From NCBI RefSeq assembly GCF_025210435.1, contig NZ_JAOART010000011.1:1-38590 (forward strand): DNA of 38,590 bases, written 5' to 3'. The notes under the pieces were generated by a model. It did not search any database. It saw nothing but the letters and a program-made list of their open reading frames with translations, and was not told the DNA's origin. The DNA is from Anaeromicrobium sp. Lineage in GTDB: Bacteria > Bacillota > Clostridia > Peptostreptococcales > Thermotaleaceae. Within the stretch, counting starts at the first letter, position 1, and every line of letters starts with the position of its first letter. The translations under genes and the position numbers were made by a program. Shown here piece by piece: positions 1 through 24,411 of the stretch.

Positions 1-150
1 AAAATCTTTGGAACCCTGGAACGTCACAACATCCTATGCTACTCCAACATGACTCATGAACCTATCTACGAAGATTCACACTTTCGCTTGTGACAAGGAC
101 TTGGGTGGAAAAGATTTTCAATATATTTTCCTGAAATAGGCACACATAAA
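1..150 (+). repeat. dispersed ~237-bp hairpin repeat, copy A (cut by window start)
   Basis: The right 150 bases match the other copies almost base for base, from AAAATCTTTGGAACCCTGG to the ATAGGC end of the outer stem. The left third lies outside the window. It sits downstream of the minus-strand DUF3298 gene and its terminator. Confidence 0.9.
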
Positions 151-177
151 GCCAATTTCCCAACCATATAACTATTC

Positions 178-208
178 AAAAATAAGACCTAGAATAAATC
201 TAGGTCTA
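178..208 (-). terminator. Rho-independent terminator of the DUF4163/DUF3298 gene
   Basis: On the minus strand AGACCTAGA and TCTAGGTCT form a perfect 9-bp stem with a 5-base loop, followed by a T-rich run. The stop codon of the gene lies in the ascending arm. Confidence 0.8.
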
Positions 209-1654
209 TTTTATAACATATTCATCCTTTAGACTATCCCCTATGTGTGAAATTTTTATAGGAAATTCTACTATACCTGCCGCATAGGGACCTATTTCAT
301 ATAATCCAAAGTATATAACCAAAGAATCATCCTTAAAATAAAATCCCTGATCATCCCTTATGGATTCAAATCCCTCATAGGGCAGATAAATATCTTCTAC
401 TTTTTCACCTCTACTTATACCCTCAGCCTTTGCTTGTTCATGTATGTCTTTTATTTGTTTATTTATTTCATCATTTATTATTTTTTTATAATCATTGTCA
501 TTTTTAAATATATCCTTTAATTTTAATATTTTTCCATTATTCAAATCCACATTATAAGCCACATCTTCATGATTTCCATGGGCACCACCTGTATAGGTAT
601 AATAAGTAATATATATACTAAGTAAATTTCCCCTATTATATTTTTCATCAAAGGTCACATTTGCCACATATGGTCTTTGTGTATATCCTATTTTTTCAGA
701 TTCCTCCATGGCAGCTTTACCATCTTCATACATTTTATCTCTAAAATCCATTATTTCATTTTCAAACAGATTATTTAGATTATCTTGTATCTCCTCATAA
801 TCTATGCCATCTTTTTCTATTTCTATGGCCTTGATAACAGGAATATTTAGGATACCTTTTAAATTATTATCATCAACAACTATTTGTTTCCTATCCACAA
901 CTACAAAGGAGCTTTCCATTTCCATATTAGTACTAAAATCTTGTCCAAAACTTTCAATAGGAATTCTAAATTCCCTATACCCCTTACTATAAGATCCTAT
1001 TGTTCCTGGTTTAAATACTATTACAAGGTTATCCTCTTCTAAGTAATATTCCTCATTTAATGAAATCTTAACACTGCTCGTATTATAATCTTCTGGATTT
1101 TTATCTATTTCCTCTTTTATATACTTTTCTATAACCTCTAAATAATCCTTCCCTTTGAATAACTTACCTAATCCAACATCTTGCCCAGTTTTTAGATCTA
1201 TGTTATAAGTATTTTTAATTTCATAGGAATAATTTTCACTTTCCCTTGTATTAATGGAAATTACAACAGATAGTAGATTCTCATCCTCATAGGTACTCCT
1301 AGTAACTACATTAACCTCTTTAGGTTCATACTCCTCATCATCCTTATTAAATTCATCATAAATATATTTTTCATCCTGGGTTTTTAAGCTTATATGATCT
1401 TCTAACTCATATTTTATATGATTATTAATTTTTCCTTGAACATCCTTATGAGACATACCCTCTAATTTAATAGAGTTCCCCTTAACCTTTATGTAGGGTT
1501 TATCTATACTTATATTTTCACTTATGACCTTAGGCTTCTCCCTTGTAACTGAAGAAACACTAGTAGCTATCTTAGCACTCTCACAAGCCGGAGCAAATAA
1601 AAGTACTCCCCCTAACATGGCAACTGCCATAATCCTTACTATAATCCTTCCCAT
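206..1654 (-). CDS. exported protein with two DUF4163/DUF3298 (RsiV/PdaC-like) modules
   Basis: A 482-residue protein with an N-terminal hydrophobic signal segment (residues 5-22) ending in APAC, which may be a weak lipobox, so it is either a lipoprotein or secreted. Two modules of the same layout follow (about 50-240 and 260-475). The second holds the family hallmarks YTYTGGAHG near residue 350 and YEIGPYAAGIVEFPI near the end. The first has the matching GSYSKGYREFRIPI but no GGAHG. This fold occurs in the outer domain of the lysozyme-sensing anti-sigma factor RsiV and in deacetylase PdaC. Here there is no cytoplasmic anti-sigma part and no catalytic deacetylase domain, so ligand binding at the cell surface is an inference. 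A GGAGG site lies 8 bases before the ATG. The gene is monocistronic, with repeat copy B about 110 bases upstream. Confidence 0.82.
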   Translation of the reverse strand: MGRIIVRIMAVAMLGGVLLFAPACESAKIATSVSSVTREKPKVISENISIDKPYIKVKGNSIKLEGMSHKDVQGKINNHIKYELEDHISLKTQDEKYIYDEFNKDDEEYEPKEVNVVTRSTYEDENLLSVVISINTRESENYSYEIKNTYNIDLKTGQDVGLGKLFKGKDYLEVIEKYIKEEIDKNPEDYNTSSVKISLNEEYYLEEDNLVIVFKPGTIGSYSKGYREFRIPIESFGQDFSTNMEMESSFVVVDRKQIVVDDNNLKGILNIPVIKAIEIEKDGIDYEEIQDNLNNLFENEIMDFRDKMYEDGKAAMEESEKIGYTQRPYVANVTFDEKYNRGNLLSIYITYYTYTGGAHGNHEDVAYNVDLNNGKILKLKDIFKNDNDYKKIINDEINKQIKDIHEQAKAEGISRGEKVEDIYLPYEGFESIRDDQGFYFKDDSLVIYFGLYEIGPYAAGIVEFPIKISHIGDSLKDEYVIK

Positions 1655-1764
1655 TTTCCTTTCGCCTCCTACCTATATACTAACCCTAGTTTACTCCTTT
1701 TAAGCACAAAAGTAGTTACGAAAGAATTACAAAACTTTAACATAAAGAATTCACAATTTATATA

Positions 1765-2003
1765 TATAGATTTCTTGGTTTTAAGATTGTTTTATATAGT
1801 AACTTGCCTATAAGGGAAAATATATTGAAAATCTTTGGAACCCTGGAACGTCACAACATCCTATGATACTTCAACATGACTCATGAACCTATCTACGAAG
1901 ATTCACACTTTCGATTGTGACAAGGACTTGGGTGGAAAAGATTTTCAATATATTTTCCTGAAATAGGCACACATAAATCTGGTTTATAAATACGAAATCT
2001 ATA
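1765..2003 (+). repeat. dispersed ~237-bp hairpin repeat, copy B (full length)
   Basis: Starts with TATAGATTTC and ends with GAAATCTATA (10-bp inverted ends). Inside are the outer stem GCCTAT/ATAGGC and a stem of more than 20 bp starting GGAAAATATATTG, closed by CAATATATTTTCC. It lies between two minus-strand genes. Confidence 0.9.
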
Positions 2004-2005
2004 TT

Positions 2006-2061
2006 TATAGATTTTATGATTTTAAATTTTCCTTATACAGTAACTTACTTAGGATGGAAAA
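2006..2061 (+). repeat. left-end remnant of the ~237-bp repeat
   Basis: TATAGATTT followed by TTATACAGTAACTTACTTAGG matches the first ~55 bases of the repeat and then stops. It directly follows full-length copy B, as if a tandem copy had been truncated. Confidence 0.7.
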
Positions 2062-2078
2062 GCCCATATTAAATCGCC

Positions 2079-3242: not shown

Positions 3243-3307
3243 AAACCATTATCCTTTCTTCAAAAGTAAAAAATAAAAAGCTCCATGACTCCCTAAAACA
3301 CATATAT

Positions 3308-3402
3308 TTACAGATTCAAGGCTTTCCCCACGCAGCAACTTGCCTACGAAGAAAAATGTATTTAAATCTTTTGGTATCCTGGACCGTCACAACATCATAT
3401 GC
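3308..3402 (+). repeat. decayed partial ~237-bp repeat, copy C
   Basis: CAACTTGCCTACGAAG, then CTGGACCGTCACAACATCATATG, aligns with the left half of the element and breaks off just before the internal loop. It abuts copy D head to tail. It shares the GCCTAC variant with divergent copy E. Confidence 0.75.
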
Positions 3403-3406
3403 ATAG

Positions 3407-3622
3407 TATAAATTTCGTAACACTAAAATTTCTTTATACAGTAACTTGCCTATAAGGGAAAATATATTGAAAATATTTGGAACCCTGGAACGTCACAACA
3501 TCCTCTGCTACTCCAACATGACTCATGAACCTATCTACGAAGATTCACACTTTCGCTTGTGACAAGGACTTGGGTGGAAAAGATTTTCAATATATTTTCC
3601 TGAAATAGGCCCATCCAAAGCC
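3407..3622 (+). repeat. dispersed ~237-bp hairpin repeat, copy D
   Basis: Left end TATAAATTTC, then the full core from CAGTAACTTGCCTATAAGG to GAAATAGGCC. The right inverted end has decayed. It lies between the yibE/F gene and the terminator of the nucleotidase gene. Confidence 0.88.
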
Positions 3623-3656
3623 AATTTTCACATAGAGCCCTTTATTCTTCACTTTT

Positions 3657-5618: not shown

Positions 5619-5776
5619 AGGCATATGAAAGAAATAAACTAGTCAATTTCCTGAGGGATTTGGATTATTTTCAAGGCATGGTGAGCGAGCATATTAAACA
5701 TATGTAAGCGATTCCATAACGAAGAAAATAATTCAAATAACCAGTAAAATTACCAGCTTATTTTTTGAATATTCCT
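5619..5776. repeat. second inverted-repeat element (~158 bp)
   Basis: The outer ends AGGCATATGAAAGAAATAA and (reverse strand) AGGAATATTCAAAAAATAA are imperfect inverted repeats. Inside, GGATTTGGATTATTTTC pairs with GAAAATAATTCAAATAACC. The unit is a nested hairpin reaching the stop codon of the last Ter gene. A shorter relative is at 17769-17888. MITE-like; family not recognised. Confidence 0.65.
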
Positions 5777-6315
5777 TATATTATCTTCATATTATTTAGG
5801 TTTCTTACTGCTTCTATTACAAAGTTCCCTGTTTCATAGGTAATTGTATTGAATTTCCACTGATCCTTATACTTATATATTTCTCCAATTATGAAAGTCT
5901 CATTTTCTAAGTTTAACTTAGCCTCTATGGAAAATACATTAGATTTTAAAATCCTCTCAGTTGCCTCTACCTTTAAATTTAGTTCACTAATATCTAATCC
6001 TTCTTTGTAATAGGATAGGGCTAGTATGATTTTGTCATAGGATTCTTCTAGAAACTTTAAATTCAAATATAAACCCTTCACAGATCTGTCCTTATAATAG
6101 TCTTCCCTTAAAAGAATATTTTTATCTTCCCTAAAGGGCCTGTTAAAATAAATAATATTCTCTTCCTCTAAAACATTATTTTTTACAGGAAATACATAAA
6201 AATCCAAGTCCATATTCCCACCTAAAATGTCATGAACAATATCTATCTTTAAAGGATTATCCCTCTCTATTTTTCCTATTACGATTTTTTGTCCCCTTAT
6301 TAAATTGTTTTCCAA
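5776..6315 (-). CDS. divergent TerD-like domain protein
   Basis: About 179 residues, the last gene of the Ter operon. The start chosen is TTG at 6315, behind GGTGGAG, because it places NNLIRGQKIVIGK where TerD paralogues have [13 protein letters not shown]; a GTG at 6327 would overlap the upstream gene by 10 bases. The TerD fold is visible in MDLDFYVF and in the near-terminal FIIGEIYKYKDQWKFNTI, which matches [17 protein letters not shown] of the paralogues at 14-17 kb. The acidic GDGDDE loop of the true TerD proteins is missing, so one calcium-binding element appears lost. A structural or partner-binding role within the Ter complex is inference. Confidence 0.7.
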   Translation of the reverse strand: MENNLIRGQKIVIGKIERDNPLKIDIVHDILGGNMDLDFYVFPVKNNVLEEENIIYFNRPFREDKNILLREDYYKDRSVKGLYLNLKFLEESYDKIILALSYYKEGLDISELNLKVEATERILKSNVFSIEAKLNLENETFIIGEIYKYKDQWKFNTITYETGNFVIEAVRNLNNMKII

Positions 6316-6317
6316 GG

Positions 6318-7088
6318 TTATCTCCACCCTTTAAAAGAAAAATCTAAATTAACATATATAATTTTACCATGATCCCTACCATACTCTAATAAATCATAGG
6401 GATTAATATTATTTTTATTAAAAGTTACCCTATTAGAAGAAACTTTTATTAGATTACTTAATTTACACATATTATTAACTAAACATACATTTTTATGAAA
6501 ACTTTCATTTAAAATATTTATTAAAAACATTTTCACTTCTTCTGTAGGTTTTTCATTTATCCTTAAAAAGCTACTAATATATTTTTTCACAAACCTTCTA
6601 TCCAGTAAGGTGGATTTAAATTCATCCATTTCCATGTTTGATATGCTTATTCTATTTTCATTTAAAACTTCCTCAATTTCATGGTCCTTATTAATTTCTT
6701 CCATACTGTTTACATTTAAAGAAACTAAATAGACCTTCAAAAATTCACTATTTTTATAGAGATAATAAAAATATTCTGCCAAGTCTGTAGTTATCCTACT
6801 CACTCCCTCAAATAATCTTTTACCATTTGAGGATATGGGCTCCATTTGAAAATATCCATTACAAAGACCATTAAATTCATGGGAAATAAAGTATATATGA
6901 AAGGAAATATCATTTCCAATGGCTTTAGATTTAACAGTAGCAATCTTAATTTTACCCACATTTCTAAACATATCCCTATAAAAAAGCATATGACTTTTCA
7001 TCTCAAAATCCACATATTTAAGAGTATTAACCCTACTTTCCATAGTAAAGTTTTCACCTATCATATGTATGCATTGTCTTTTATCCAT
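6318..7088 (-). CDS. unknown Ter-operon protein, 256 aa
   Basis: I do not recognise this protein. It is soluble-looking, lysine- and asparagine-rich, with no signal peptide or membrane segment. It lies between telA (8-base gap) and the TerD-like gene (2-base gap), so it is certainly co-transcribed with them. An N-terminal beta-rich half (about 25-105, with QCIHMIGENFTMES and KSKAIGNDISFHIYFISHEFNG) is followed by a mainly helical region and a C-terminal strand KIIYVNLDFSF. AGGTGATAAG precedes the ATG. Functional assignment rests only on its place in the Ter locus. Confidence 0.7.
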   Translation of the reverse strand: MDKRQCIHMIGENFTMESRVNTLKYVDFEMKSHMLFYRDMFRNVGKIKIATVKSKAIGNDISFHIYFISHEFNGLCNGYFQMEPISSNGKRLFEGVSRITTDLAEYFYYLYKNSEFLKVYLVSLNVNSMEEINKDHEIEEVLNENRISISNMEMDEFKSTLLDRRFVKKYISSFLRINEKPTEEVKMFLINILNESFHKNVCLVNNMCKLSNLIKVSSNRVTFNKNNINPYDLLEYGRDHGKIIYVNLDFSFKGWR

Positions 7089-7096
7089 CTTATCAC

Positions 7097-8287
7097 CTAC
7101 GCATTTTTATATGATAGTAATTTTCTCTTTTGTTCTTGTTCAAGCTCTATTAATTCCTTCTCCACATTTTGACGATTAGCCCTTCCCTCTTGGTATATTT
7201 TCATACTTTCGTCAATGGTCTCTAGTAATTTATTATGGGTCTCCCTTAATGTTTCAATACTAATGACTCCTCTTTCACTTTCCTTAGCTATTTCTATGGA
7301 ATTTACCTTCAATAACTCTGCGTTTTGTCTTAACATATCCTCCGTTGTATCTGTAACTTTCCTTTGAAGTTCCAGGGCAGTTTTTTGTCTATTTAAAGAT
7401 ACTGTTAAAGCTATTTGATTTTTCCAAATTGGAATAGTATTTAAAATACTAGATTGGATTTTATTAGCTAATATCTTATCATTACCTTGAATCAATCTTA
7501 TTTGGGGCAATGTTTGAATTGCCAGTTCTCTACTTAATTTTAAATCATGGATTCTTTTTTCGATTTCTGCAAGCATCCTTGAAAAATCATTGTACTTTTG
7601 AATATCTAGCATATTTCCACTATTTTCTGCTTGTCTCTTTAAATCTAATAATACAGTTTCCTTAAGTTCCTTATATTTCACTTCTCCTGCTCCAATATAT
7701 AGTTCTAAATGTCCTAAGTATTCCATATTTTTATTGTATAAAGCATCTAATACATTTACATCCCTTATTAGTTCTTGTCTAGCCTTATCTAGGGATACTA
7801 CTATTTTATCCACCGTATCCGTAACATTTTGAAGTTTATTTTTAACACTATTAGCACTTTTAGCAAGTTTTCCAAAGAAAGGTATCTTATCCATTATGGA
7901 TTTTTTATCACTTAGGGACTCTAAATCTACTCCTTGAATAGTAGTAAGCAAAGTTCCAAGGCCATCTCCCACTACTCCTGCGTCCTTATTTTTCACCCCT
8001 TCTAAAATTCCATCTGCAAATTTAGCAATACTTCCTTGAATCTCCGCACCAAAATGACTGATTCCATTAGAAGTAGTAATATCCATTTCATTTTTAACCG
8101 TATCTAATTGTTGTGGGCTAAACTTAGTTAAATCTACAGTAATTTTAACTTCCTCCATCTGTACAGGAGTAGTTTCTTCCTTTTTTAGCATGACCTTATT
8201 ACTTTCAATTGGTACTAATCCTTGTCCACCATTTTCATTTACCTTATTATCCGTGTCAATAGTATTTAATAAATCTTGAAATCCCAT
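7097..8287 (-). CDS. telA: TelA-family toxic anion resistance protein
   Basis: A 396-residue TelA/KlaA (B. subtilis YceH) family protein. A low-complexity N-terminus (1-45) is followed by the long alpha-helical TelA domain (about 60-390). The conserved C-terminal block is present: PIWKNQIALTVSLNRQKTAL, DTTEDMLRQNAELLK and ETHNKLLETIDESMKIYQEG. Known: the family is linked to tellurite and cell-envelope stress resistance and travels with TerD genes; its biochemical activity is unknown. GGGAGG lies 8 bases before the ATG. It is the fifth gene of the operon, 13 bases after the small unknown gene. Confidence 0.93.
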   Translation of the reverse strand: MGFQDLLNTIDTDNKVNENGGQGLVPIESNKVMLKKEETTPVQMEEVKITVDLTKFSPQQLDTVKNEMDITTSNGISHFGAEIQGSIAKFADGILEGVKNKDAGVVGDGLGTLLTTIQGVDLESLSDKKSIMDKIPFFGKLAKSANSVKNKLQNVTDTVDKIVVSLDKARQELIRDVNVLDALYNKNMEYLGHLELYIGAGEVKYKELKETVLLDLKRQAENSGNMLDIQKYNDFSRMLAEIEKRIHDLKLSRELAIQTLPQIRLIQGNDKILANKIQSSILNTIPIWKNQIALTVSLNRQKTALELQRKVTDTTEDMLRQNAELLKVNSIEIAKESERGVISIETLRETHNKLLETIDESMKIYQEGRANRQNVEKELIELEQEQKRKLLSYKNA

Positions 8288-8300
8288 ACTTTATCCTCCC

Positions 8301-8756
8301 TTAATTAAAATCTGATTTTACTAGATCATTAATAGTTTTTAAATCTATTTTTAAGTTAGAAGAATTTTCTTCCTTAGTTCTTTTTATTACCTTATATAGT
8401 TTATCATTTATAGTATTTAGGGTTTTTACAAATTCATCTATTTCATCCTGGGACCAATTATCTTCATCATAGGTTTCTAATACTTTTTTTATCATATCAA
8501 TATACTTTAAAAGTAGCAATTCATCTACAGATACTAGGGACTCTTCATTGGCCTTATGAAAATCTATAATGTTCATATAGTATGAAACAAATAAAATCAA
8601 ATTTGAAAAAACTCTATTTTCTTTCACATGTGGTATATATGCTTCTATTTCTCTTAAAGTTATAAGTTCCCTATCTAACTGAGATTCTTCCTTCACAGGA
8701 GCATCTTCTATTTCAGGTTCTGGGGATTTTTTAAATATGTTAAAAATAGAAATCAC
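8301..8756 (-). CDS. small helical Ter-operon protein, 151 aa
   Basis: Unrecognised 151-residue protein, highly charged and predicted from its sequence to be almost fully helical, with an acidic N-terminal linker (EPEIEDAPVKEES) after a short MISIFNIFKK start. No membrane segment. A GTG start follows AGGAA closely, so the start is not certain. It precedes telA by 13 bases and follows the HAD gene by 33. In other Firmicutes telA neighbours are often small helical partners, so a TelA partner role is a reasonable but unproven guess. Confidence 0.68.
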   Translation of the reverse strand: MISIFNIFKKSPEPEIEDAPVKEESQLDRELITLREIEAYIPHVKENRVFSNLILFVSYYMNIIDFHKANEESLVSVDELLLLKYIDMIKKVLETYDEDNWSQDEIDEFVKTLNTINDKLYKVIKRTKEENSSNLKIDLKTINDLVKSDFN

Positions 8757-8789
8757 TTCCTTTATTTTATCATTCCATTGTCCATATGA

Positions 8790-9581
8790 TTAAAATTCAC
8801 CTATCTTCAATTCTACTTTTTTTATTATTTCTTCTGCACATAAAATTCCTGATTCATCCGTAAACTCTATTGTATCTATTTTATCATAAGTCTTATATAT
8901 TTCTCCATGGGTTGGAGCTATTGAGTAATTTGCCATATTAAGTATGGGCATATCAAGTAGAGAATCTCCCGATGCAAATACGGTATTTTTCTTTTCCATA
9001 TTTTTTATATATTCAATGGGACTCCATTTGTTTATACAATTAGGGACAAAATATAATTTCCTTCCTTGAAGGGACATGTTCCAATTCATTTTATCTAGCC
9101 ATTTATTAAATATATCTAATGTTTCTTTATGGACATTTTCCTCATCTACTATATTGTATAAAAATAAATTATCAGCATCATAGCCCCTAAGGACCCAATG
9201 ACCTTTTACCTTGTCAAACTCATTTCTAATTTCATCTATGGGAGCACATTCCTTTAATTTACTTTGGATAATACTTCTCCACTCTTCATCTACTTTTCCA
9301 TCTATTAATATATTTCCCCCATTACTTACCACTGCATATTTAGGAGAAATAACTTCATTTAACATGAATATTCTTTTATATTGCTTAATAGTTCTAGTGG
9401 TTACAGGTACAAATAATAATTTATCCTTTAATTTACTTAAATGATCAAAGGCCTTCTTAGTCATATAAGAAATTTCCTTTTCATCCATTCTCTCCACTAA
9501 AACTATTTCTTCCCTACATATATTTTCTATAAATTTTTTAGAATATATTAGTGTTCTATCTAAATCACTGGCAAAAATCAT
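8790..9581 (-). CDS. HAD-superfamily phosphatase (Cof-like) of the Ter operon
   Basis: A 263-residue HAD hydrolase. Motif I is DLDRT (residues 6-10, nucleophile D6, acid D8), motif II lies in VVSNGGN (84-90), and motif IV is GDSLLD (205-210). A cap domain lies between about 90 and 190, as in the Cof/type IIB subclass. The start overlaps the stop of the preceding fused phosphoribosyltransferase gene by 4 bases, so translation is probably coupled. In Ter-linked biosynthetic clusters a HAD phosphatase accompanies the PRTase, StiP and CitE-like proteins and is proposed to dephosphorylate a nucleotide-like intermediate. The substrate is not known. Confidence 0.9.
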   Translation of the reverse strand: MIFASDLDRTLIYSKKFIENICREEIVLVERMDEKEISYMTKKAFDHLSKLKDKLLFVPVTTRTIKQYKRIFMLNEVISPKYAVVSNGGNILIDGKVDEEWRSIIQSKLKECAPIDEIRNEFDKVKGHWVLRGYDADNLFLYNIVDEENVHKETLDIFNKWLDKMNWNMSLQGRKLYFVPNCINKWSPIEYIKNMEKKNTVFASGDSLLDMPILNMANYSIAPTHGEIYKTYDKIDTIEFTDESGILCAEEIIKKVELKIGEF

Positions 9582-12052
9582 GACTCTTTCCCCTTTAAAT
9601 TTTTAATAATTCCACAACATAAGTAGGACATATTTTCATATATTTCTACAGGAACATTTTTTTCCTTTGCTAAAATTAAAATATGTTCTAAATTAGGAGA
9701 CTTTTCCCTTATGAGAATCTTCCAAGGAACTCGTCTTAATAATACCCTAGTAGTCTCACCTATTCCAGGCTTTATTAAATTAATGTCATCCACATTAAAT
9801 TCAAGGGCCATGTCCTTAACGGCCCTCAGTCCACTCCAATCAGGACTACTTATTTCTTCCTTTAGCCCTTCTTTTATTTCATTAGAAACCTCAGGAAATT
9901 CCTTTTCTATACTATTTATATAAAAGTTAGAAAGATCTTTCTCCTTTAGTTCTTCATAATATTTTCCTCCATGAAAATCATGAGGCCCCACCAAATCCTT
10001 CCTATGGACAGTCCTACTTACAAGACCCGATACGGTAGAATTTAGACAAGCACTAGGTATTAAGAAGTCTTCCCTTGTTCCACAAAGGGATACACAATAG
10101 GCTGGGTCTGCTAATACGGCTAAATCATCATCTAATACATAACCATATTTCTTTTCAAAGTCTATTTTAGCTTCCTTAAGGACCTTTGTTATGGCTCCCT
10201 TTCCTGTCCATCCGTCTATGAACTGAATATGGCCTTTAGGATGTTTCTCTATTATGTACCTAATGGCATTTTCATCAATGCCCTTACCCCTTATGATAGA
10301 CACACTATAGTGGGGAATGTGTAGATTATACTTATCTTTCATATATGTTCTTATTAGTACTCCTATGGGAGTTCCAGCCCTGGCTAAGGATACTAATACT
10401 AGGTTTTTACCACATTTGTTTAATATTTTTTCACTGACTATGCCTACAGCAGCCGCTACCTTTTTACTATAGGAATTTAAACTTTTGTAAAATAGGTCTA
10501 TATATTCCTCTGAGGGTTCATATTCTACAGGTAACATTTCTGAATAGTGTACTCCACTTTGAATGAGTTTTTCCCTTTCACTAGTCTCCTGTTCCTTTAC
10601 TAAATCATTTATATTCTTTAATAAAAAGGTCACATCCTCATCCTTATAACTGCCTAGTTTATCTGTTTTCACAGTTCTTTTTCCCATGCATATTACTATA
10701 TTTATTTTAGGTATGGGTAATGTTTTTAAGAAGGATTTTAACTCATCTAATCTTTCTTCTGATATGTTTCTCTCTAGGAATAAAAACATATCATCATATT
10801 GATTTTCATGTAAATTGTATATATAGTTTTCCACAGAATTATTATTAAGACTTTTATGGGGATACTTACTTTTTATGGCATAGGATCTTTCATCATTTAC
10901 ATATATGGGACTTCTAGTGGTAGAATGATATTTTATACCCTCTCCCATATACGTACTAATCCTCATGGGTACATACATGAACTCTTCCGTTCCTAGGACT
11001 AATGTGTCTTTACCAATTCTCTTTTTTCCTAGAAGTTTACCTATTTCCTTAAATTTATCCAAAGTAGCAAACTCATCCCTTGTACTTATGCCAAATCTTC
11101 CACACTCACCAATATAAGGAATATAATTTATTAGTTCTCCATTAGTGGAAGGATAATACACAGGTGTGAAATAACTTTCTTCAAATAGGTTTATAACTTC
11201 TATTTCACTATCTTTCTCATTTTCATATTCATATACCCTATCATTTATTTCACCCTTTTGTTCCACATTCATGGCTCCACTTATTAGGGATACTACATTT
11301 ATTTTTATATTTAAATTCTTTTCAAATTCCTCATATAATAATTTATCTTCTCTATTTCTCCAATCTAAAATAGTTAAAACAGTATACTCTTTTCTTTTAT
11401 ACTTACTATTTATATCCTTTATTATATTTAATGCAGTTTTTCCCGTAGTTATTTCATCATCTATCAATACTATTTTCTTTTCATTATTAAGAAAATCCCC
11501 ATCTATGGAATAAAACCTGTGACTAGTAGCATGGGAATGTTCCTCTTCAAAGTTTATAAGGGACTCTTTTTTATGAAGAATCTCCCTTGTAGTATGGATA
11601 TAGGTATGTTCTCCCTTAAAGGAGCTAAATACTCCATGACCTAGTCCTGTGGCCGTCTCAGCAAAACCTATAAATATGGTAGGATCCTTTAAGTCTATCC
11701 GATTATTAATCTGCTTTTCATATGTTTCATCCATATGTTCATGATAATTTATACAATCACATATTTTTTCTATCATTCCATCATGTTTTTTATATATTTT
11801 ATCCATGTAACTATGGGCTAGAACACTTGAAGTTAATATTCCTAATTTAGGGTTAAGGGGTATATGCTTACCTAGTAATTTACTTACAAATAAAAAACTT
11901 CTCTTTTTATTCTTCCTAGCAGCCATATTCATAACCTTCTTAAGATCTAAGCCATAGGGATTTTCATCTATTTTAATATTAACCTTTAATTTATCTTGTA
12001 TTTCATATTTATAATTTTCTTTTAAGGAAACTTTCATAATCTTCTTCTCCAT
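9578..12052 (-). CDS. fused phosphoribosyltransferase - TRSP - StiP protein
   Basis: About 824 residues. The N-terminal half is a PRTase_2 domain with the PRPP loop VLIDDEITTGKT (about 195-206), followed by the TRSP domain with STTRSP (377-382). The C-terminal half is a StiP-type domain: SLARAGTPIGVL (about 555-566), FIDGWTGKGAI (611-621, a second PRPP-loop-like motif), LADPAYCVSLCGTREDFLIPS and HDFHGGKYY. In many genomes these are two separate neighbouring genes, so this is a fusion. Known: such proteins form the biosynthetic arm of Ter-type stress loci, thought to make a nucleoside-like metabolite; no product has been shown here. I chose the ATG at 12052, preceded by GGAG at 7 bases; ATGs at 12064 and 12037 are alternatives. 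The start lies inside the end of the CitE-like gene, so the two are coupled. Confidence 0.88.
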   Translation of the reverse strand: MEKKIMKVSLKENYKYEIQDKLKVNIKIDENPYGLDLKKVMNMAARKNKKRSFLFVSKLLGKHIPLNPKLGILTSSVLAHSYMDKIYKKHDGMIEKICDCINYHEHMDETYEKQINNRIDLKDPTIFIGFAETATGLGHGVFSSFKGEHTYIHTTREILHKKESLINFEEEHSHATSHRFYSIDGDFLNNEKKIVLIDDEITTGKTALNIIKDINSKYKRKEYTVLTILDWRNREDKLLYEEFEKNLNIKINVVSLISGAMNVEQKGEINDRVYEYENEKDSEIEVINLFEESYFTPVYYPSTNGELINYIPYIGECGRFGISTRDEFATLDKFKEIGKLLGKKRIGKDTLVLGTEEFMYVPMRISTYMGEGIKYHSTTRSPIYVNDERSYAIKSKYPHKSLNNNSVENYIYNLHENQYDDMFLFLERNISEERLDELKSFLKTLPIPKINIVICMGKRTVKTDKLGSYKDEDVTFLLKNINDLVKEQETSEREKLIQSGVHYSEMLPVEYEPSEEYIDLFYKSLNSYSKKVAAAVGIVSEKILNKCGKNLVLVSLARAGTPIGVLIRTYMKDKYNLHIPHYSVSIIRGKGIDENAIRYIIEKHPKGHIQFIDGWTGKGAITKVLKEAKIDFEKKYGYVLDDDLAVLADPAYCVSLCGTREDFLIPSACLNSTVSGLVSRTVHRKDLVGPHDFHGGKYYEELKEKDLSNFYINSIEKEFPEVSNEIKEGLKEEISSPDWSGLRAVKDMALEFNVDDINLIKPGIGETTRVLLRRVPWKILIREKSPNLEHILILAKEKNVPVEIYENMSYLCCGIIKNLKGKES

Positions 12053-13112: not shown

Positions 13113-13162
13113 AAGCACCCCCCTAGGGTTTTTCTTTTTATCTTTATTACATAAAGTTATCA

Positions 13163-13388
13163 ATTCAAATCTTTCCCCATACAACAACTTGCCTACGAAG
13201 GAAAATATATTAAAATTTTTTGGAATCGTGGAACGTCACAACATCATATGAATAGTAAACATGACACGTGAACCTATATTTAATATTCACATCTTAGCAT
13301 GTGACAGGTGACTTCGATGGAAAAAAATTTTAATATATTTTCCTGAAGTAGGCCTACATAAGTTTGCTTTAAATCTAACAAATCTATA
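13163..13388 (+). repeat. dispersed hairpin repeat, copy E (divergent, covarying)
   Basis: Same architecture as the other copies but many substitutions, often paired: GCCTAC/GTAGGC instead of GCCTAT/ATAGGC, ATTAAAATTTTTT/AAAAAATTTTAAT instead of ATTGAAAATCTTT/AAAGATTTTCAAT, and ATCG/CGAT instead of ACCC/GGGT. It lies about 50 bases upstream of the Ter operon start and shares its right TATA with copy F. Confidence 0.85.
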
Positions 13389-13617
13389 TAGATTTATGAA
13401 CACTAAGCTTTCTTTATACAGTAACTTGCCTATAAGGGAAACCATTGAAAATCTTTGGAACCCTGGAACGTCACAACATCCTATGCTACTCCAACATGAG
13501 TCATGAACCTATCTACGGAGATTCATACTTTCGCTTGTGACAAGGACTTGGGTGGAAAAGATTTTCAATATATTTTCCTGAAATAGGCCCACATAACCCT
13601 GCTTTGCCAAATCTATA
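13387..13617 (+). repeat. dispersed hairpin repeat, copy F (tandem with E)
   Basis: Begins TATAGATTT, ends AAATCTATA. The left arm of the long stem is shortened (GGGAAACCATTG). Together with E it fills the 0.6 kb between the three-gene terD operon and the CitE-like gene, leaving little other sequence for a promoter. Confidence 0.88.
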
Positions 13618-13673
13618 TATATATATAAATTAAAACCTAATTTTATTCAACAAAAACTTTATATAGGGAATTT

Positions 13674-13704
13674 AAAAAAGGCTGCATTATAACAGCCTTT
13701 TTTT
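13674..13704 (-). terminator. terminator of the three-gene terD operon
   Basis: AAAAAGGCTG - CATTATAA - CAGCCTTTTTTT: an 8-10 bp stem with T runs on both strands, just after the stop of the last terD gene. Confidence 0.92.
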
Positions 13705-13716
13705 AAGCCCCATTTA

Positions 13717-14298
13717 TTAATCTACTTGTAGGCCATAATTTTTACATAATGCATATAGGCCACCTTCAAATCCACTTCCTACAGCTTTAAACTTCCACTC
13801 TCCATTATATCTATAAAGTTCACATACTACTAAAGCCGTCTCCACAGAGAATTCTTCTCCTAGATTATATCTCAATATTTCATTTCCCGTATCTTCATTT
13901 ACTACCCTTACATAGGCATTAGAAACTTGACCAAAATTTTGTCTTCTCACAGGTGCATCATGGATAGTTACTGTAATACCTATTGTGTGAACATGGTCTG
14001 GAACCTTTTTAAAATTAACCTTTATTTCCTCATCGTCTCCATCACCTTCACCAGTTCTATTATCTCCCGTATGGATTACAGAACCATTTCCACCTTCAAG
14101 ATTATTATAAAATACAAAATCCTTATCGTTTATTACCTTTCCATTTTCTCCTGCCAAGAAAGCTGACGCATCTAAGTCAAAATCATATCCACCAGAATAT
14201 TTATTAGTATCCCATCCAAGTCCTATTATTACCCTTTCAAGACCTGGTTCTTGTTTAGTTAAATCTATCCTTTGTCCCTTACTTAAATTAATAGACAT
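13717..14298 (-). CDS. terD: TerD family protein (paralogue 1)
   Basis: A 193-residue TerD protein; start at ATG 14298 behind GGTGGAG (an in-frame GTG 9 bases earlier is part of that site). Canonical marks: [31 protein letters not shown] (calcium-binding acidic loop) and [20 protein letters not shown]. Known: TerD proteins bind calcium and associate in a membrane-linked stress complex giving tellurite, phage and envelope-stress resistance in other bacteria. Last gene of a three-gene operon, 22 bases after paralogue 2 and followed by a terminator. Confidence 0.93.
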
Positions 14299-14320
14299 AA
14301 TCTCCACCCTTTCAATAATA

Positions 14321-14923
14321 TTATTTGTATCTATTCATAATTTGGCTTAAAGAAGAATCCATAGTTCCTTCTCCAATGGCAGCAAACTTCCAATCCTTAC
14401 CACTTCTATATATTTCTCCTACCATTAAAGAAGTTTTACCAGCATAATTATCCGTTAAATTATAACGAAGAAGGTCTTTTCCTGTTTTGTTATCTTCTAT
14501 TCTAATAAAAGCATTTTGAACTAATCCAAAATCTTGCTTTCTTTTTATACAATCATATATGTTTACTACAAATACTAATTTCTTTATTCTCTCAGGAATT
14601 TTCTCAATTTCCACAAATATTTGCTCATCATCTCCGTGGCCTCCACCTGTAAGGTTATCACCCGTATGACGTATTGCTCCACATTTACTCTTTAAATTAT
14701 TAAAATAAATCAAATCATCTTGATATCTAAATCTATCATTTTCTTCTAACATGATTACAGAAGCATCACAATCAATCTCTGCTCCTCCACCACCAAATAA
14801 GGCCGATAAAAATCCTCCACTTTTCTTAACCGGGTCCCAACCTAATCCTACAAGCAATCTAGATAACCCTTCATTAGACTTAGTTAAATCAATCCTCTGA
14901 CCCTTTTGCAAATTAATAGCCAT
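14321..14923 (-). CDS. TerD family protein with glycine-rich insert (paralogue 2)
   Basis: A 200-residue TerD-family protein of the subtype with a Gly/Phe insert ([11 protein letters not shown]) before [10 protein letters not shown], and GHGDDEQI in place of GDGDDE. It ends with [20 protein letters not shown]. Start at ATG 14923, behind GGGAGTGAG. The closest relative in the window is the gene at 16870-17478, so two TerD subtypes coexist. Middle gene of the operon. The changed acidic loop may alter calcium binding, which is inference. Confidence 0.92.
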
Positions 14924-14957
14924 AACTCTCACTCCCTAAACCTTAATTCAAATATAT

Positions 14958-15539
14958 TTATCCTACATTAATTCCAAAATTAGCACAAAGTGCTCCTAAT
15001 CCACCTTGGAATCCACTTCCTATTGCATTAAATTTCCACTCTCCACCATGTCTATAGATCTCTCCTACCACAACAGCTGTTTCTATACTAAAATCTTCTC
15101 CTAAATCATATCTTATTAACTCTTCATTTGTTTCTCCATTTACTACCCTTATGTACGCATTAGATACTTGACCAAAATTTTGACCCCTTTCAGTGGCCTC
15201 ATGGATTGTAGCTGAAAAATCAATCTTCGTAATATTAGCAGGAACTTTACTTAAATCTATAGTTACCTGCTCATCATCTCCATCACCTTCACCAGTTCTG
15301 TTATCCCCTAAATGAACTACAGAGCCATTTCCACCTTTAAGATTATTATAAAATACAAAATCACTATCACTAGAAACCTTACCATCTTCCTGTAATAAAA
15401 AAGCTGCCGTATCTAAGTCAAAGTCATGACCACCATCATATTTATTCGTATCCCATCCAAGACCTACTAATACACGAGTAAGACCTGGGTTTGTTTTAGT
15501 TAAATCTACCTTTTGTCCCTTTTTTAAACTAACTGCCAT
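14958..15539 (-). CDS. terD: TerD family protein (paralogue 3)
   Basis: A 193-residue canonical Ter[63 protein letters not shown]. First gene of the three-gene operon. Start at ATG 15539, with AAGGAG 8 bases upstream; an ATG 6 bases earlier is too close to that site. It is very similar to paralogue 1, as expected from local duplication. The 250-base gap to the divergent transporter should carry both promoters; a TATAAT reads on the minus strand at 15640-15635, but I see no good -35 partner. Confidence 0.93.
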
Positions 15540-15723
15540 GTTCATCTCTCCTTTTAATCTATCTTCTTAAAATTCTTACTTTTCCATATTATTTAATCTT
15601 ATTCTACATTTTTTATCCAAATCCTTCAAGGTCTATTATAACTAAAAAAAGGCGATATTTAAATATTTTAGTGTATTTTTACATTTTTCGACCATTTCCT
15701 CACCTTTTTGCCATTTTTTTAAT

Positions 15724-15752
15724 TTGATTTATCTTCCCTTATTAACTATAAT
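15724..15752 (+). promoter_or_regulatory. promoter of the cation exchanger gene
   Basis: TTGATT (15724-15729), 17-base spacer, TATAAT (15747-15752). The TTG of the -35 box also opens a longer reading frame, which argues against that frame's use as the start. Confidence 0.75.
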
Positions 15753-15795
15753 ATTGTTTATAAGTATGTTTACAATTAAAAGGGAGGGAATTTTT

Positions 15796-16833
15796 ATGTT
15801 CCATTGGATAAACAATATTTGGATTGCCCTACTAATGTTAGGAGCAATGACCTGGGTAATTAACTTCGCATCAGATAAATTAGGAGATGCCCTACACATA
15901 CTAGGGGTAAAACTTAATATTCCTACGTCAGTAAGGGGTGCAACCTTCGATGCAGTTAGTTCTTCATTTCCAGAATTTTCAACAGCCATGGTTGCCGTGT
16001 TAGTTTACAAGGAGTTTGCTGATATTGGTATTCCTGCCATTGCCGGTTCAGGAATATTTAACGTATTACTTATTCCTATGCTTAGTATTATTGCATATAA
16101 AGGGAAAGATTTACTAAAGGCTGAAAAATCTGTAGTATATAGGGATATGTTCTTTTATTCTTTAAGTGTTATATCTCTTATGCTTATGGCTTATAGTGGT
16201 AAATTTACTACCTTATCAGGAATAATCCTTATGAGTATATATGTTTGCTACGTATTTGTATTATATATTCAAACTAAGAACTTCAGACGTTCTCAAAACG
16301 AAAGTGCTGCTGCCATTGAAGAAGATGAGGAAGAAGAAGAGGATATGAGTTATGGCCAAATATTTATTACGGTGGCTCTAGCAATCGCAGCCCTATGGGT
16401 AAGTTGTGATGCCATAGTCCAATCTGCCATAATTATTGCAGCCACATTTAATATTCCTACTATTATAGTATCTGTTATCATCCTAGCAGCATGTACATCC
16501 ATACCAGATACATTACTATCTGTAAAATCAGCTTCCATGGGAGATGCAGATGGAGCCGTATCAAATGCAGTTGGATCTAACATATTTGATATTTGTATTT
16601 GTTTAGGTTTCCCAATTTTAATATCAGGAAAGGACATTGTTGTTAGCTTTGGTAACAACCTGGTAATTTTCTCTTTCCTACTAATCTCCATGATTACAAC
16701 AGGAAGTTTACTTTTAAAGAAAAATGGAGTTTCTAAAAAGGATGGTTTCATAATGGCCAGTGTATATGGATTATTCTTAGTATACATTGTAGGAGTAGCC
16801 ACAGGATTAATTCCACTTAATATATTAGGATAA
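15796..16833 (+). CDS. CaCA-family sodium/calcium exchanger-type transporter
   Basis: A 345-residue polytopic membrane protein with the two inverted alpha-repeats of the CaCA superfamily: residues 41-95 (RGATFDAVSSSFPEFSTA ... GSGIFNV) and 220-272 (ACTSIPDTLLS ... AVGSNIFDICI). An acidic loop, EEDEEEEED, lies at about 175-183. About ten membrane segments. Family role: exchange of calcium or another cation for sodium or protons. Start at ATG 15796 with AGGGAGGG 7 bases upstream; the promoter sits where a longer TTG frame would begin. It is divergent from the terD operon and convergent with another terD-type gene. Because TerD proteins bind calcium, calcium handling coupled to the Ter system is a reasonable inference. 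No TerC gene is seen in the window. Confidence 0.88.
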   Translation: MFHWINNIWIALLMLGAMTWVINFASDKLGDALHILGVKLNIPTSVRGATFDAVSSSFPEFSTAMVAVLVYKEFADIGIPAIAGSGIFNVLLIPMLSIIAYKGKDLLKAEKSVVYRDMFFYSLSVISLMLMAYSGKFTTLSGIILMSIYVCYVFVLYIQTKNFRRSQNESAAAIEEDEEEEEDMSYGQIFITVALAIAALWVSCDAIVQSAIIIAATFNIPTIIVSVIILAACTSIPDTLLSVKSASMGDADGAVSNAVGSNIFDICICLGFPILISGKDIVVSFGNNLVIFSFLLISMITTGSLLLKKNGVSKKDGFIMASVYGLFLVYIVGVATGLIPLNILG

Positions 16834-16838
16834 AAATT

Positions 16839-16866
16839 AACCCACCGAATTGTTTGGTGGGTTTTA
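16839..16866. terminator. bidirectional terminator between exchanger and terD-type gene
   Basis: AACCCACC - GAATTGTTT - GGTGGGTT, with T-rich flanks on the + strand and a less regular one on the minus strand. It lies between two convergent stop codons. Confidence 0.85.
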
Positions 16867-16869
16867 TTA

Positions 16870-17478
16870 TTACATATATTTCTTTACTATACTACTTATG
16901 GAAGTATCCCTAGTTCCCTGGCCTATGGCTGCAAACTTCCACTGGCCTCCATGTCTATATAACTCTCCCACTATTAGGCTAGTTGCTCCTGAATAATCAT
17001 CTGTTAAGTTATACCTTAAAATCTCATTATTTCTATTAGCATCTACTGCCCTAATAAAGGCATTTTGAATCATACCAAAATCTTGCTTTCTCTTTTCGCA
17101 GGCATATATATTTACTACAAATACTAATTTACTTGTTTTAGGTGATACACTACTAAGTTCTACAAGTACTTGCTCATCGTCTCCATCTCCATCTCCAGTT
17201 AAATTATCTCCAGAGTGTATGACAGCACCACACTTACTTTTTAAATTGGCAAAATATACAATATCCTTTTTATCTCTTATTTTTCCATTTTCATCTAACA
17301 TAAGTACAGATGCATCACAGTCAATATTAGGTGCTGATCCACCACCAAATAGACCTCCCATTAAACCTTTTCCACCACTTTTTACAGGATCCCATCCTAG
17401 TCCTATCATCAATTTACTAAGTCCTGGATCATTTTTAGTTAAGTCCACTCTTTGACCTTTTTTTAAGCTAACTGCCAT
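16870..17478 (-). CDS. TerD family protein with glycine-rich insert (paralogue 4)
   Basis: A 202-residue TerD-family protein of the same subtype as paralogue 2: KSGGKGLMGGLFGGGSAPN insert, IDCDASVLML, then an intact [10 protein letters not shown] acidic loop and LIVGELYRHGGQWKFAAIGQG. Monocistronic, AGGGGAGAG before the ATG, with repeat copy G 59 bases upstream. The conserved KQDFGMIQNAFIRAVD block matches [16 protein letters not shown] of paralogue 2, supporting duplication and separation of one ancestral gene. Confidence 0.92.
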   Translation of the reverse strand: MAVSLKKGQRVDLTKNDPGLSKLMIGLGWDPVKSGGKGLMGGLFGGGSAPNIDCDASVLMLDENGKIRDKKDIVYFANLKSKCGAVIHSGDNLTGDGDGDDEQVLVELSSVSPKTSKLVFVVNIYACEKRKQDFGMIQNAFIRAVDANRNNEILRYNLTDDYSGATSLIVGELYRHGGQWKFAAIGQGTRDTSISSIVKKYM

Positions 17479-17536: not shown

Positions 17537-17772
17537 AGATAGATTTCTTGGTTGTAAATTTATTTTATACAGTAACTTGCCTATAAGGGAAACGATTGAA
17601 AATCTTTGGAACCCTGGAACGTCACAACATCCTATGCTCCTTGAACATGACTCATGAACCTATATACGAAGATTCACACTTTCGCTTGTGACAAGGACTT
17701 GGGTGGAAAAGATTTTCAATAGTTTCCTGAAATAGGCACACATAAATCTGGTTTATAAATACGAAATCTATA
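17537..17772 (+). repeat. dispersed hairpin repeat, copy G (both stem arms shortened)
   Basis: Ends GATAGATTTC and GAAATCTATA. The long stem is shortened on both arms together: GGAAACGATTG pairs with CAATAGTTTCC, where other copies read GGAAAATATATTG/CAATATATTTTCC. Confidence 0.9.
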
Positions 17773-21126: not shown

Positions 21127-21137
21127 GGGGGGATATT

Positions 21138-21680
21138 ATGTTTCAAAATATTATGGGAGCAGTTTCAACCTATGCAATACCACTTATATTATTGTTAATA
21201 CCACTATATGGATATATAAAGAAGGTAAAGGTATATGAGGCATTTACTGAGGGTGCTAAGGAAGGATTTTATACGGCAGTTAGGATAATTCCATACTTAG
21301 TTGCCATGTTAGTTGCCATTGGAATATTTAGAAAATCGGGAGCGATGGATATACTAAATGGCATATTAAGACCTATTACAAATTTAATAGGTATGCCAGC
21401 GGAAGTATTACCAATGGCCCTTATGAAACCCCTATCTGGTGGAGGTGCATCTGGTATTATGAATGACTTGTTTACTACCTATGGTCCCGACTCCTTAATA
21501 GGTAGAACTGCATCTATTATGAATGGCTCTACAGAGACAACCTTTTATGTATTAGCCGTATATTTTGGCTCTGTGGCAATCAAAAAGACTCGTCATGCAG
21601 TATTAGCAGGATTAATTGCAGATGGAGTAGGAATTATTACAGCTGTTATAGTGGCTAGAATTATGTTTGCATATGCCTAA
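21138..21680 (+). CDS. spmB: spore maturation protein B
   Basis: A 180-residue membrane protein with the SpmB signature: YKKVKVYEAFTEGAKEGF-like block (residues 23-42), MKPLSGGGASGIMNDLF and SIMNGSTETTFYVLAVYFG. It belongs to the nucleoside-transporter/FeoB gate-like family and partners SpmA in spore core dehydration. GGGGGG-type site before the ATG, 11 bases after spmA. The next gene starts 13 bases after its stop. Confidence 0.94.
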   Translation: MFQNIMGAVSTYAIPLILLLIPLYGYIKKVKVYEAFTEGAKEGFYTAVRIIPYLVAMLVAIGIFRKSGAMDILNGILRPITNLIGMPAEVLPMALMKPLSGGGASGIMNDLFTTYGPDSLIGRTASIMNGSTETTFYVLAVYFGSVAIKKTRHAVLAGLIADGVGIITAVIVARIMFAYA

Positions 21681-21693
21681 GGAGGGATATATA

Positions 21694-22623: not shown

Positions 22624-22700
22624 AAAAAATGGGAGTATGTAAATAACTTTGTTGTTTTGAAAACATAAGATTCCTACTTGATAATAAATAACTTTACTTA

Positions 22701-22814
22701 ACGAGGCAAATCAGATATTGTATTCATATATAATCACATTCAGAGAAATTTTTTTGTAATATATATAGGATTCTACAAAATGGTAAGATTATAGTATGGA
22801 TATTTTTGCCTCGT
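22701..22814. repeat. inverted repeat pair between convergent genes
   Basis: ACGAGGCAAA (22701-22710) and TTTGCCTCGT (22805-22814) are perfect 10-bp inverted repeats about 94 bases apart, in the 208-base gap between the convergent LD-carboxypeptidase and glycosyltransferase genes. Possibly a decayed element or a long-range terminator stem. Confidence 0.5.
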
Positions 22815-22831
22815 AATATTTTTATTGCAAT

Positions 22832-23983
22832 CTATATAGATTTCTTTTCATAAAAATAATTATATATGTCATGTGTCCTATTTGAATTTTCTACTATTAG
22901 TTTATTAACCAATTGAACTATGGCATCCCTAGAGTAGGGTTTTGATAAATTCTTTAATTTTTTCTTCATATTTCCTAATTCTTCTGGCTTTTGGATTAGA
23001 CTGTCTATAACCTTTACCATATGGTTTATTTTTTTTGTTCTAAGGGCTACCCCCGACTCAATTAAAAAATCTGAATTCTCCTCTTCTTGCCCAGGGATCA
23101 CATAGGGAATAATCATGGGGATGTTTTTGGCTATAGATTCTGAAACTGTCAATCCTCCTGGTTTTGTAATAATCACATCTGATATATCCATTAACTGAGG
23201 TATATTTTTAGTAAATCCATATATGGACATCTCCTTATTATTCAATTCTCCCTCGTATTTTTTCTCTAATTTATTTTTTAATTTCTTGTTATTTCCACAA
23301 ACCACTATAATTTTCATTCTATTTTTACTAGTCATAATGTTTTCTAGTACTTTTTCCATGGCCTTAAGGCCCATACTTCCACCCATTAATAGTAATGTAA
23401 ATACATCTTCTTTATTCCTTTTTTTATCAATAGAACATAAAAAAAATTCTTTTCTTATGGGAATTCCATAATGAAAAATCTTTTGTTTTTCTATTCCTTT
23501 TTTCATCATATGGACCTTTGTATAGTAACTCCCCGTAATATAAGCGTCCACATTTTTATGGATATAGGTTTGATGAGCCTTATAATCTGTAACAATAGAT
23601 ATAAATGGGATAGATATTTTTCTTTTAAGCTCTCCTATAATATTTACTACAAAGGGATGGGTAGCAATAATCAAATCTGGTTTATGTTCTTTTATTAGAT
23701 TGTATATTTTATCTTCCATTAATTTTGTTATAATACTAACCATTCTTGAGCTTATTATTTTTCCATTACTTTTTTTATATAGCTCACTATATGCCTTAGG
23801 AAATATTTTCAACAACAATTCATATCCTTCTGTTACAATGGAATTCATTACTTTATTTGTTTCCTTTAAAGCATCTAGCTTCACAACATCATATCCATTA
23901 TTCTCAAATAATTCTTCTAAGGATGTGGCAGCTTCATTATGGCCACCTCCTGTTGAGGCTGTAAAAATTAATAACTTTTTCAT
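22832..23983 (-). CDS. UgtP/MGDG-synthase-like glycosyltransferase (GT28)
   Basis: A 383-residue GT-B glycosyltransferase. The N-terminal MGDG-synthase acceptor domain starts with LLIFTASTGGGHNEAA and includes DLIIATHPF and PFISIVTDYKAHQTYI. The C-terminal donor domain has LLMGGSMGLKAM, YGFTKNIPQLMDISDVIITKPGGLTVSE and PYVIPGQEEEN. The family includes processive diacylglycerol glucosyltransferases that make glycolipids and lipoteichoic acid anchors, working at the inner face of the membrane from UDP-sugar. The exact donor and acceptor cannot be read from sequence. Monocistronic; GAGGGGGAGG site before the ATG. Confidence 0.88.
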   Translation of the reverse strand: MKKLLIFTASTGGGHNEAATSLEELFENNGYDVVKLDALKETNKVMNSIVTEGYELLLKIFPKAYSELYKKSNGKIISSRMVSIITKLMEDKIYNLIKEHKPDLIIATHPFVVNIIGELKRKISIPFISIVTDYKAHQTYIHKNVDAYITGSYYTKVHMMKKGIEKQKIFHYGIPIRKEFFLCSIDKKRNKEDVFTLLLMGGSMGLKAMEKVLENIMTSKNRMKIIVVCGNNKKLKNKLEKKYEGELNNKEMSIYGFTKNIPQLMDISDVIITKPGGLTVSESIAKNIPMIIPYVIPGQEEENSDFLIESGVALRTKKINHMVKVIDSLIQKPEELGNMKKKLKNLSKPYSRDAIVQLVNKLIVENSNRTHDIYNYFYEKKSI

Positions 23984-24172
23984 ATGAGCCTCCCCCTCTC
24001 TTTTATTTCTAGTGTAAACTATATCGATTAAAAACTCCTTCTGAACTGCTGTTTTTTAAAGTTAAACTCAACTCTATGCCTAGCAACACCATGGCATTAA
24101 AATTCAGGAAGTTCTCTACACATATTTGTTGCTTTTTACAACTTTATAAGACCACATTTATTAAACTAACAT

Positions 24173-24411
24173 TATAGATTTCTTGGTTTTAAGATTGTTT
24201 TATATAGTAACTTGCCTATAAGGGAAAATATATTGAAAATCTTTGGAACCCTGGAACGTCACAACATCATATGCTCCTTGAACATGACTCATGAACCTAT
24301 CTACGGAGATTCACACTTTCGCTTGTGACAAGGACTTGGGTGGAAAAGATTTTCAATATATTTTCCTGAAATAGGCCCACATAAAGCAAGTTTATACACC
24401 AGAAATCTATA
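24173..24411 (+). repeat. dispersed hairpin repeat, copy I (full length)
   Basis: TATAGATTTC to GAAATCTATA, 239 bp, nearly identical to copies B and D. It ends 18 bases after the stop of the minus-strand EEP gene. The 189 bases to its left (23984-24172) hold only a small ATGCC/GGCAT stem near 24080. Confidence 0.9.

Follow-up and report, generated by a model that had tools for sequence, protein, structure and literature searches.

A Probable IS630-Derived Miniature Transposable Element with a Conserved Folded Core and a Replication-Linked Orientation in Anaeromicrobium

The window analyzed here is a stretch of 38,590 nucleotides from Anaeromicrobium sp. (assembly GCF_025210435.1, contig NZ_JAOART010000011.1, positions 1 to 38,590 of the forward strand). 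Its repeated copies are members of a family of intergenic elements of about 239 bp. We read this family as an IS630-derived miniature inverted-repeat transposable element (MITE) that has a conserved folded core and is oriented relative to replication. We consider this reading as a whole to be probable. That the repeats are IS630-type MITEs, which are non-autonomous DNA transposons, is well supported. It is also well supported that selection keeps the fold and particular loop blocks while the paired letters change together. The unusual part of the element is its cargo and not its membership of the IS630-type MITEs. The genome under study (G000) is a 3.96-Mb draft, of which around one third was read in stretches. 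The only sister genome of the genus that was compared is referred to as G001.

Results

Copy number, ends and target site

Exact matches to the core number 191 in G000 (86 and 105 by strand), and a control pattern gave none. An initial core pattern was too narrow and found five. Model R1 matched all 150 scored G000 candidates. The copies are intergenic and have no coding capacity, as is expected of a MITE. An open reading frame (ORF) of at least 100 amino acids is overlapped by more than 100 nt in one of 156 G000 copies and in none of 50 G001 copies. Many G000 copies contain a shorter open frame of approximately 30–40 codons running through GGAAC, for example near window positions 24234-24334 (plus strand, approximate). 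In G001 this frame reaches 35 codons in one of 44 copies; a coding element was rejected because the other 43 sister copies lack a frame of that length. An intrinsic terminator was also rejected, since the ends carry no T-run (as read from the sequence, not scanned). The draft assembly breaks at the repeat: 23 of the 156 G000 copies covered by the stretches have a contig end no more than 300 bases away.

The ends of the element are TATAGATTT...AAATCTATA. With at most two mismatches per end, 119 of 130 full copies were anchored, the anchors being picked by the motif itself and the 11 copies without it being excluded. Both ends are exact in 69 of the 130. No conserved sequence is found outside the ends of the 119 anchored copies. 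A target duplication longer than TA is not seen in them either, as there is no excess of matches at 3 to 8 bases outside the ends.

The sites of the 119 copies were sought within 0.59 Mb of G001, where the flank matches are 69–96% identical. Twenty-one copies could be placed, and 20 of these sites are without the element (gap below 65 nt). At the other site, L117_6837, a sister-type element fills the gap. Most of the compared copies thus postdate the species split. A single TA is read through both flanks at L198_7026, L106_7287 and L167_3094, and on the right flank alone at L123_15900 and L112_6032. Sites L106_5486, L164_10449 and L117_13409 are compatible with TA, L106_2628 shows TG, and the remaining sites of the 21 are unreadable. 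The TA target duplication of a MITE is thus seen from the empty sites of G001.

A fragment of an IS630 transposase gene is present at the start of contig C114. It scores 75.7 bits against Pfam DDE_3. Its score against NCBIfam NF033545 (IS630) is 88.4 bits, below the whole-protein cut-off of 100 because the gene is cut. A DNA search with this fragment found seven places in G000, C114 included. Four further places carry transposase sequence (at ends of C94, C137, C39 and C42) and two are short matches of 34–37 nt. All five transposase-bearing copies terminate in AAATCTATA. The median identity between the right arm of the MITE and the last 34 nt of the insertion sequence (IS) is 76%, whereas the 99th percentile for random 34-mers from the window is 68%. 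For the reversed left arm the median is 65% and the best value 79%. The right end is thus common to the MITE and to an IS630 element of the same genome. The sequence-only reading could not match the repeats to a named family. This stands for Rfam, where the search returned chance-level matches at most and none above the gathering cut-off; a known Rfam RNA family was therefore rejected. The family can nevertheless be assigned as an IS630-type MITE by its ends, its TA duplication and the IS630 fragments.

Fold and covariation

The folding energy of the copy at 24173-24411 is −75.5 kcal/mol, compared with −43.0 kcal/mol for its shuffles (z = −7.6). The complement of this copy folds with −80.7 kcal/mol (z = −7.9). 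On either strand, none of 200 shuffles folds as well. RNAalifold on 36 G000 copies yielded 39 pairs, and 8 of the 39 have two-sided changes that keep the pair. A larger alignment contains 53 rows from three genomes, representing 51 distinct copies, with two cut at a contig end. In the 51 distinct copies, standard pairs fill 91.8% of 1952 paired cells. The value is 77.6% with shuffled partners and 34.5–49.7% with partners slid by 1–3 columns. Two-sided changes are found at 25 of the 39 pairs (shuffled mean 17.3) and in 305 cells (shuffled mean 104), in an alignment that was fitted to the R1 structure and in which related rows inflate the counts.

The same exchanges are visible by eye between the fixed blocks GGAAC, ACAACATC and GACTT. 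Depending on the sub-family, one helix is written GTCACA/TGTGAC, ATGACA/TGTCAT, ATCAGA/TCTGAT or ATCACA/TGTGAT, and another ACCC/GGGT, AGTG/CACT or AGGT/ACCT. The matched paired changes described in the sequence-only reading are real. Its proposal of selection on the folded form is well supported by pairing that persists from one sub-family to the next although the helix sequences differ. It had set against this proposal an IS-derived MITE without a conserved fold; the family is IS-derived, and its fold is conserved. The conserved blocks GGAAC, ACAACATC..TATG, GATTCACACT and GACTT are located in or around loops. Both species retain an asymmetric internal loop in which GGAAC faces AAGGACTT or AGTGACTT.

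The two arms of the long stem had been described as shortened together. This is true of the copy at 17537 and does not hold as a general rule. The arms of 131 G000 copies are long/long in 77 cases, short/short in 19 and mixed in 35 (association p = 0.0003); the window copies at 13387 and 20258 are among the mixed ones. In the short helix, 106 of the 131 copies have every pair intact and 25 do not. The commonest mismatch in this helix is a chimera of ATTG with GGGT (12 copies).

Orientation relative to replication

The orientation of the elements is biased, a feature that goes beyond what the initial reading had observed. The direction of replication was read from GC skew, with oriC not located. 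In Bacillota, GC skew marks the leading strand. Judged by the skew of 6-kb flanks, the element runs opposite to the G-rich strand in 114 of 122 G000 copies and 41 of 46 G001 copies. Left out of these counts are the 23 copies no more than 300 bases from a contig end (of which 15 agree with the rule), absolute skews below 0.08, and matches of less than 40 bits or 100 bases. Where both 4-kb flanks agree in skew, the counts are 87 of 92 (G000) and 30 of 32 (G001). Among 150 listed copies, neighbors on a contig point in the same direction 65 times and in opposite directions 7 times. In an early batch (the window and 20 multi-copy stretches), 59 of 61 matches were opposite to the G-rich strand; here the skew of the whole stretch was used, the window was judged by its left part, and weak partial matches were counted. 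Ten G000 stretches were chosen for their mixed-strand contigs, so the rate is understated if anything.

Of the 23 G000 copies whose flanking genes diverge or converge, 21 follow replication (p = 7e-5). Gene direction therefore does not explain the orientation rule in G000. Of the five IS630 copies, three have one orientation and two the opposite one; for four of them the assignment used flanks of roughly 1.4 kb. The ends themselves thus do not appear to be the source of the bias.

Contig C144 shows an abrupt change of skew around 60 kb that coincides with a copy, and two of the eight G000 exceptions are located there. At L105:17855 (C144 near 59.85 kb) the skew changes from −0.34 to +0.32, and the genes flip too. 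This switch is either a real inversion ending in the repeat or a mis-join of the assembly. An oriC was rejected as its cause, as there was no dnaA among ten proteins scanned there. In G001, L062:1501-1912 and L082:1501-1865 are back-to-back inverted element pairs. Members of these pairs account for two of the five G001 exceptions.

Copies in the window

All eight copies reported from the sequence alone were located at the positions given, within a few bases. Two partial copies had been overlooked. Two limits also had to be moved: the decayed right arm of the copy at 3407 extends to about 3645, beyond 3622, and the left limit of the divergent copy is near 13150, not at 13163. The copies are as follows.

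1..183, plus strand: copy truncated at the contig start, with an approximate right limit; R1 180.9 bits over 1-150, 5' cut
1765..2003, plus strand: complete element, TATAGATTTC...GAAATCTATA; R1 228.9 bits
2004..2060 (approximate), plus strand: partial element, left arm alone, adjoining the copy at 1765
3296..3406 (approximate), plus strand: left half of a divergent and older element, split by the copy at 3407; nhmmer match 3334-3404
3407..3645, plus strand: element with a decayed right arm; R1 219.4 bits
13150..13388, plus strand: element of a divergent sub-family, ATCG/CGAT helix; R1 188.9 bits
13387..13617, plus strand: tandem partner of the element at 13150 with a common TA junction, left arm alone shortened; R1 216.2 bits
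17537..17772, plus strand: element with the long stem shortened in both arms; R1 215 bits
20258..20494, plus strand: complete element flanked by divergently oriented genes, shortened in its left arm alone; R1 219.5 bits
24173..24411, plus strand: complete element, reference copy; R1 227.7 bits

Mini-derivatives of around 57–90 nt were also observed. They keep outer-arm sequence and have lost the core hairpin at varying points. Both terminal inverted repeats (TIRs) are present in four of the six listed below. Some break at short common words, as expected of slippage deletions.

L104:15183; L110:2726-2814; L110:8008 (minus strand); L126:12934-13021; L127:16285-16370; L127:17542-17598: mini-derivatives

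Three other features of the window were noted. A tellurite/stress-type cluster (5776-17478) encloses two MITE copies. Its genes include TerD paralogues, TelA, a StiP-PRTase-TRSP-PELOTA fusion, a C-C bond lyase and a Na/Ca exchanger. A purine riboswitch (26784-26885) lies upstream of an IMP dehydrogenase gene. A fragment of a group II intron, D1-D4, is cut by the window end (38476-38590).

Distribution

In G001, 73 of 150 scored candidates matched R1, with strongly diverged sequence and the same fold. The two sister species have separately amplified different sub-families. R1 matched 3 of 17 genomes of the family, G000 included; the 14 others had no match at E 1e-5. R2 found the same three among 394 genomes of the order, in a survey that scored six candidates per genome and so may miss weak relatives. 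In a listing of 391 class genomes that shows neither G001 nor G009, a pattern matched G000 alone.

G009 comes from another genus of the same family. It has three copies (L099, L100 and L101), one of them cut by the contig start. A wider scan of contigs matched at least one contig of a metagenome-assembled genome (MAG) of Marinisporobacter (NCBI lineage Thermotaleaceae), which shows the same locus as G009. The near-consensus copy L099:1250-1429, identical to L221:1250-1429, scores as high as the G000 copies. Transfer between genera or contamination of the MAG is the likely cause. G009 also has a distinct IS630 transposase gene, split over two reading frames (L204:1015-2010). An origin from a plasmid or phage was rejected, as there was no match in the plasmid or phage collections. 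Fifteen pattern matches in viral contigs looked like chance when the surrounding sequence was read. In the top-ranked papers of the published literature we recognized neither this family nor a comparable orientation bias of a MITE.

Discussion

Proposed mechanism

The MITE ends probably derive from an insertion sequence of the IS630 family that resides in G000. Its transposase most likely acts in trans and would cut and paste the element into intergenic TA dinucleotides. The cargo, which a plain deletion derivative would lack, is a core of approximately 165 nt, with no coding frame kept across the two species, that forms one long interrupted hairpin. Its fold and loop blocks are what selection maintains. 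Conservation of the core as a folded form, together with a direction linked to replication, is what would be expected of a nucleic acid acting on one strand.

We infer the reason for the fold and the orientation being kept as follows. The folded core may act strand-specifically as a fork or a transcript passes. The active form would most likely be an RNA read co-directionally with replication, which corresponds to the strand complementary to the elements as written here. Head-on copies would be harmful to the fork or the transcript and would be removed. A protein partner that recognizes the loop blocks would be implied. This mechanism, with head-on copies selected away, ranks first among the explanations considered here, and we put it forward tentatively, at somewhat less than an even chance.

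Several observations speak against our reading of the family and of its mechanism. At the ends, the motif itself chose the anchors, which excluded the 11 copies that do not have it. Bases just outside the ends match at two positions in 23 of 119 copies, a mild excess over the 15.4 expected. Without the terminal 10 bases, the median identity to the IS drops to 67% for the right arm, which equals the random 99th percentile, and to 50% for the left arm, the random median. The left end of the IS630 element and a full transposase were not found at the G000 contig ends examined. A DDE_3 search of G001 gave no match. In the core, the short frame through GGAAC reaches at least 35 codons in 48 of 129 G000 copies. 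Unpaired core columns are alike between the species in 36 of 55 cases and paired columns in 52 of 78. As a class, unpaired columns are thus no more alike, and what is conserved is particular blocks. The mixed arms and chimeric helices point to recombination between copies. Wobble counts on the plus strand are G-T 93 vs. A-C 51 in G000 and 48 vs. 36 in G001, and the loop substitutions of G000 lean the same way, so these counts do not discriminate between the strands. With no skew cut-off, the orientation counts are 119 of 133 (G000) and 43 of 50 (G001). The single G001 copy between divergent or convergent genes does not follow replication. Between two lagging-strand genes, two of five copies do not follow it. 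By score, the exceptions do not form a clearly younger or older set, with medians of 197 vs. 193 (n = 8) and 154 vs. 149 (n = 5).

Other explanations

The orientation may instead be set at insertion. The transposition complex would engage the fork, through the single-stranded lagging template or the sliding clamp, and the fold would be its recognition structure. We rank this second and consider it possible, although rather unlikely. The bias in gene-neutral contexts of G000 agrees with it, as do exceptions that are not clearly younger. Use of the lagging-strand template has been reported for the group II intron RmInt1 and for IS200/IS605 elements (PMC8914252, PMC6006769). Against it stand the mixed orientations of the five IS630 copies that have the same right ends, a small number. 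The ends are also nearly symmetric, and a TA duplication has no direction of its own.

The orientation could also be a by-product of transcription, if copies survived only where sense strand and upstream gene share a direction, since genes mostly follow replication. Where both neighboring genes are on the leading strand, 82 of 86 copies show the usual orientation. A stop codon is often found shortly upstream of a copy (median distance from core to ORF end 75 nt), and the one gene-neutral copy of G001 runs against replication. The bias persists between divergent and convergent genes in G000 (21/23), and three of the five copies between lagging-strand genes still follow replication. We regard this explanation as improbable.

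The matched changes could arise by quasi-palindrome correction, in which replication at the fork switches template from one arm to the other, and not by selection on the fold. A long hairpin is a good substrate for this process, internally deleted derivatives exist, and arms are shuffled between copies. Such correction would erase internal loops, however, and the loop with GGAAC is kept in both species. We give it the same small chance. Both transcription and arm-to-arm correction leave part of the pattern unexplained.

An ordinary inert MITE with incidental fold and orientation would account for the IS630 right end, the TA duplication and the many intergenic and decayed copies, and is very unlikely given that covariation exceeds both controls (shuffled and slid) and that 93% of copies (114/122) share the orientation, compared with 61–63% for BOX, RUP and SPRITE in the consulted part of PMC3049150.

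Significance

The two sister species amplified different sub-families and kept one architecture through compensatory change. Most copies share a direction relative to replication even where the flanking genes differ. MITEs are usually viewed as passive products of deletion in which folding is incidental. A DNA transposon may here have captured a structured nucleic-acid module, as a bacterial analogue of a short interspersed nuclear element (SINE), with a fold (RNA or single-stranded DNA) that works with the fork. We hold this to be speculative and rather unlikely. If it is true, hundreds of copies would be oriented marks along both replichores, and could affect fork passage, chromosome organization or the fate of transcripts. 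The approximately 190 copies, the 73 model matches and the 20 empty sites among 21 are natural replicate insertions for testing the constraint on fold and orientation.

Comparison with known systems

The Correia/NEMIS and bcr1 elements are small, mobile, folded intergenic repeats, and the likeness to them is by description only. We know of no such orientation bias in them. IS200/IS605, REP elements and group II introns resemble the family in their replication-linked orientation. They have no TIR with a TA duplication and use other enzymes. An IS200/IS605 or REP element (HUH transposase) was rejected for this family, since it has both TIRs and a TA duplication and such elements have neither.

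Closer likenesses are found in Streptococcus pneumoniae, as described in the consulted part of PMC3049150. RUP has IS630-like ends (IS630-Spn1), MITE features, a fold and 110 copies in the genome studied there. It is 107 bp long and simple, and 60.9% of its copies are on the leading strand, whereas the Anaeromicrobium element has 239 bp, deep covariation and 93% in one orientation. BOX is present in high copy (125) and has TIRs and an extensive predicted RNA structure, and some copies are expressed. It differs in its modular boxA-B-C arrangement, its ISSpn2-like ends and its 60.8% on the leading strand; this comparison is by description only. According to the same part of that source, the values for BOX, RUP and SPRITE (60.8, 60.9 and 63.3%) mirror the coding bias. 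The orientation bias of the Anaeromicrobium element is far above that of the few comparable elements checked there (93% vs. 61–63%).

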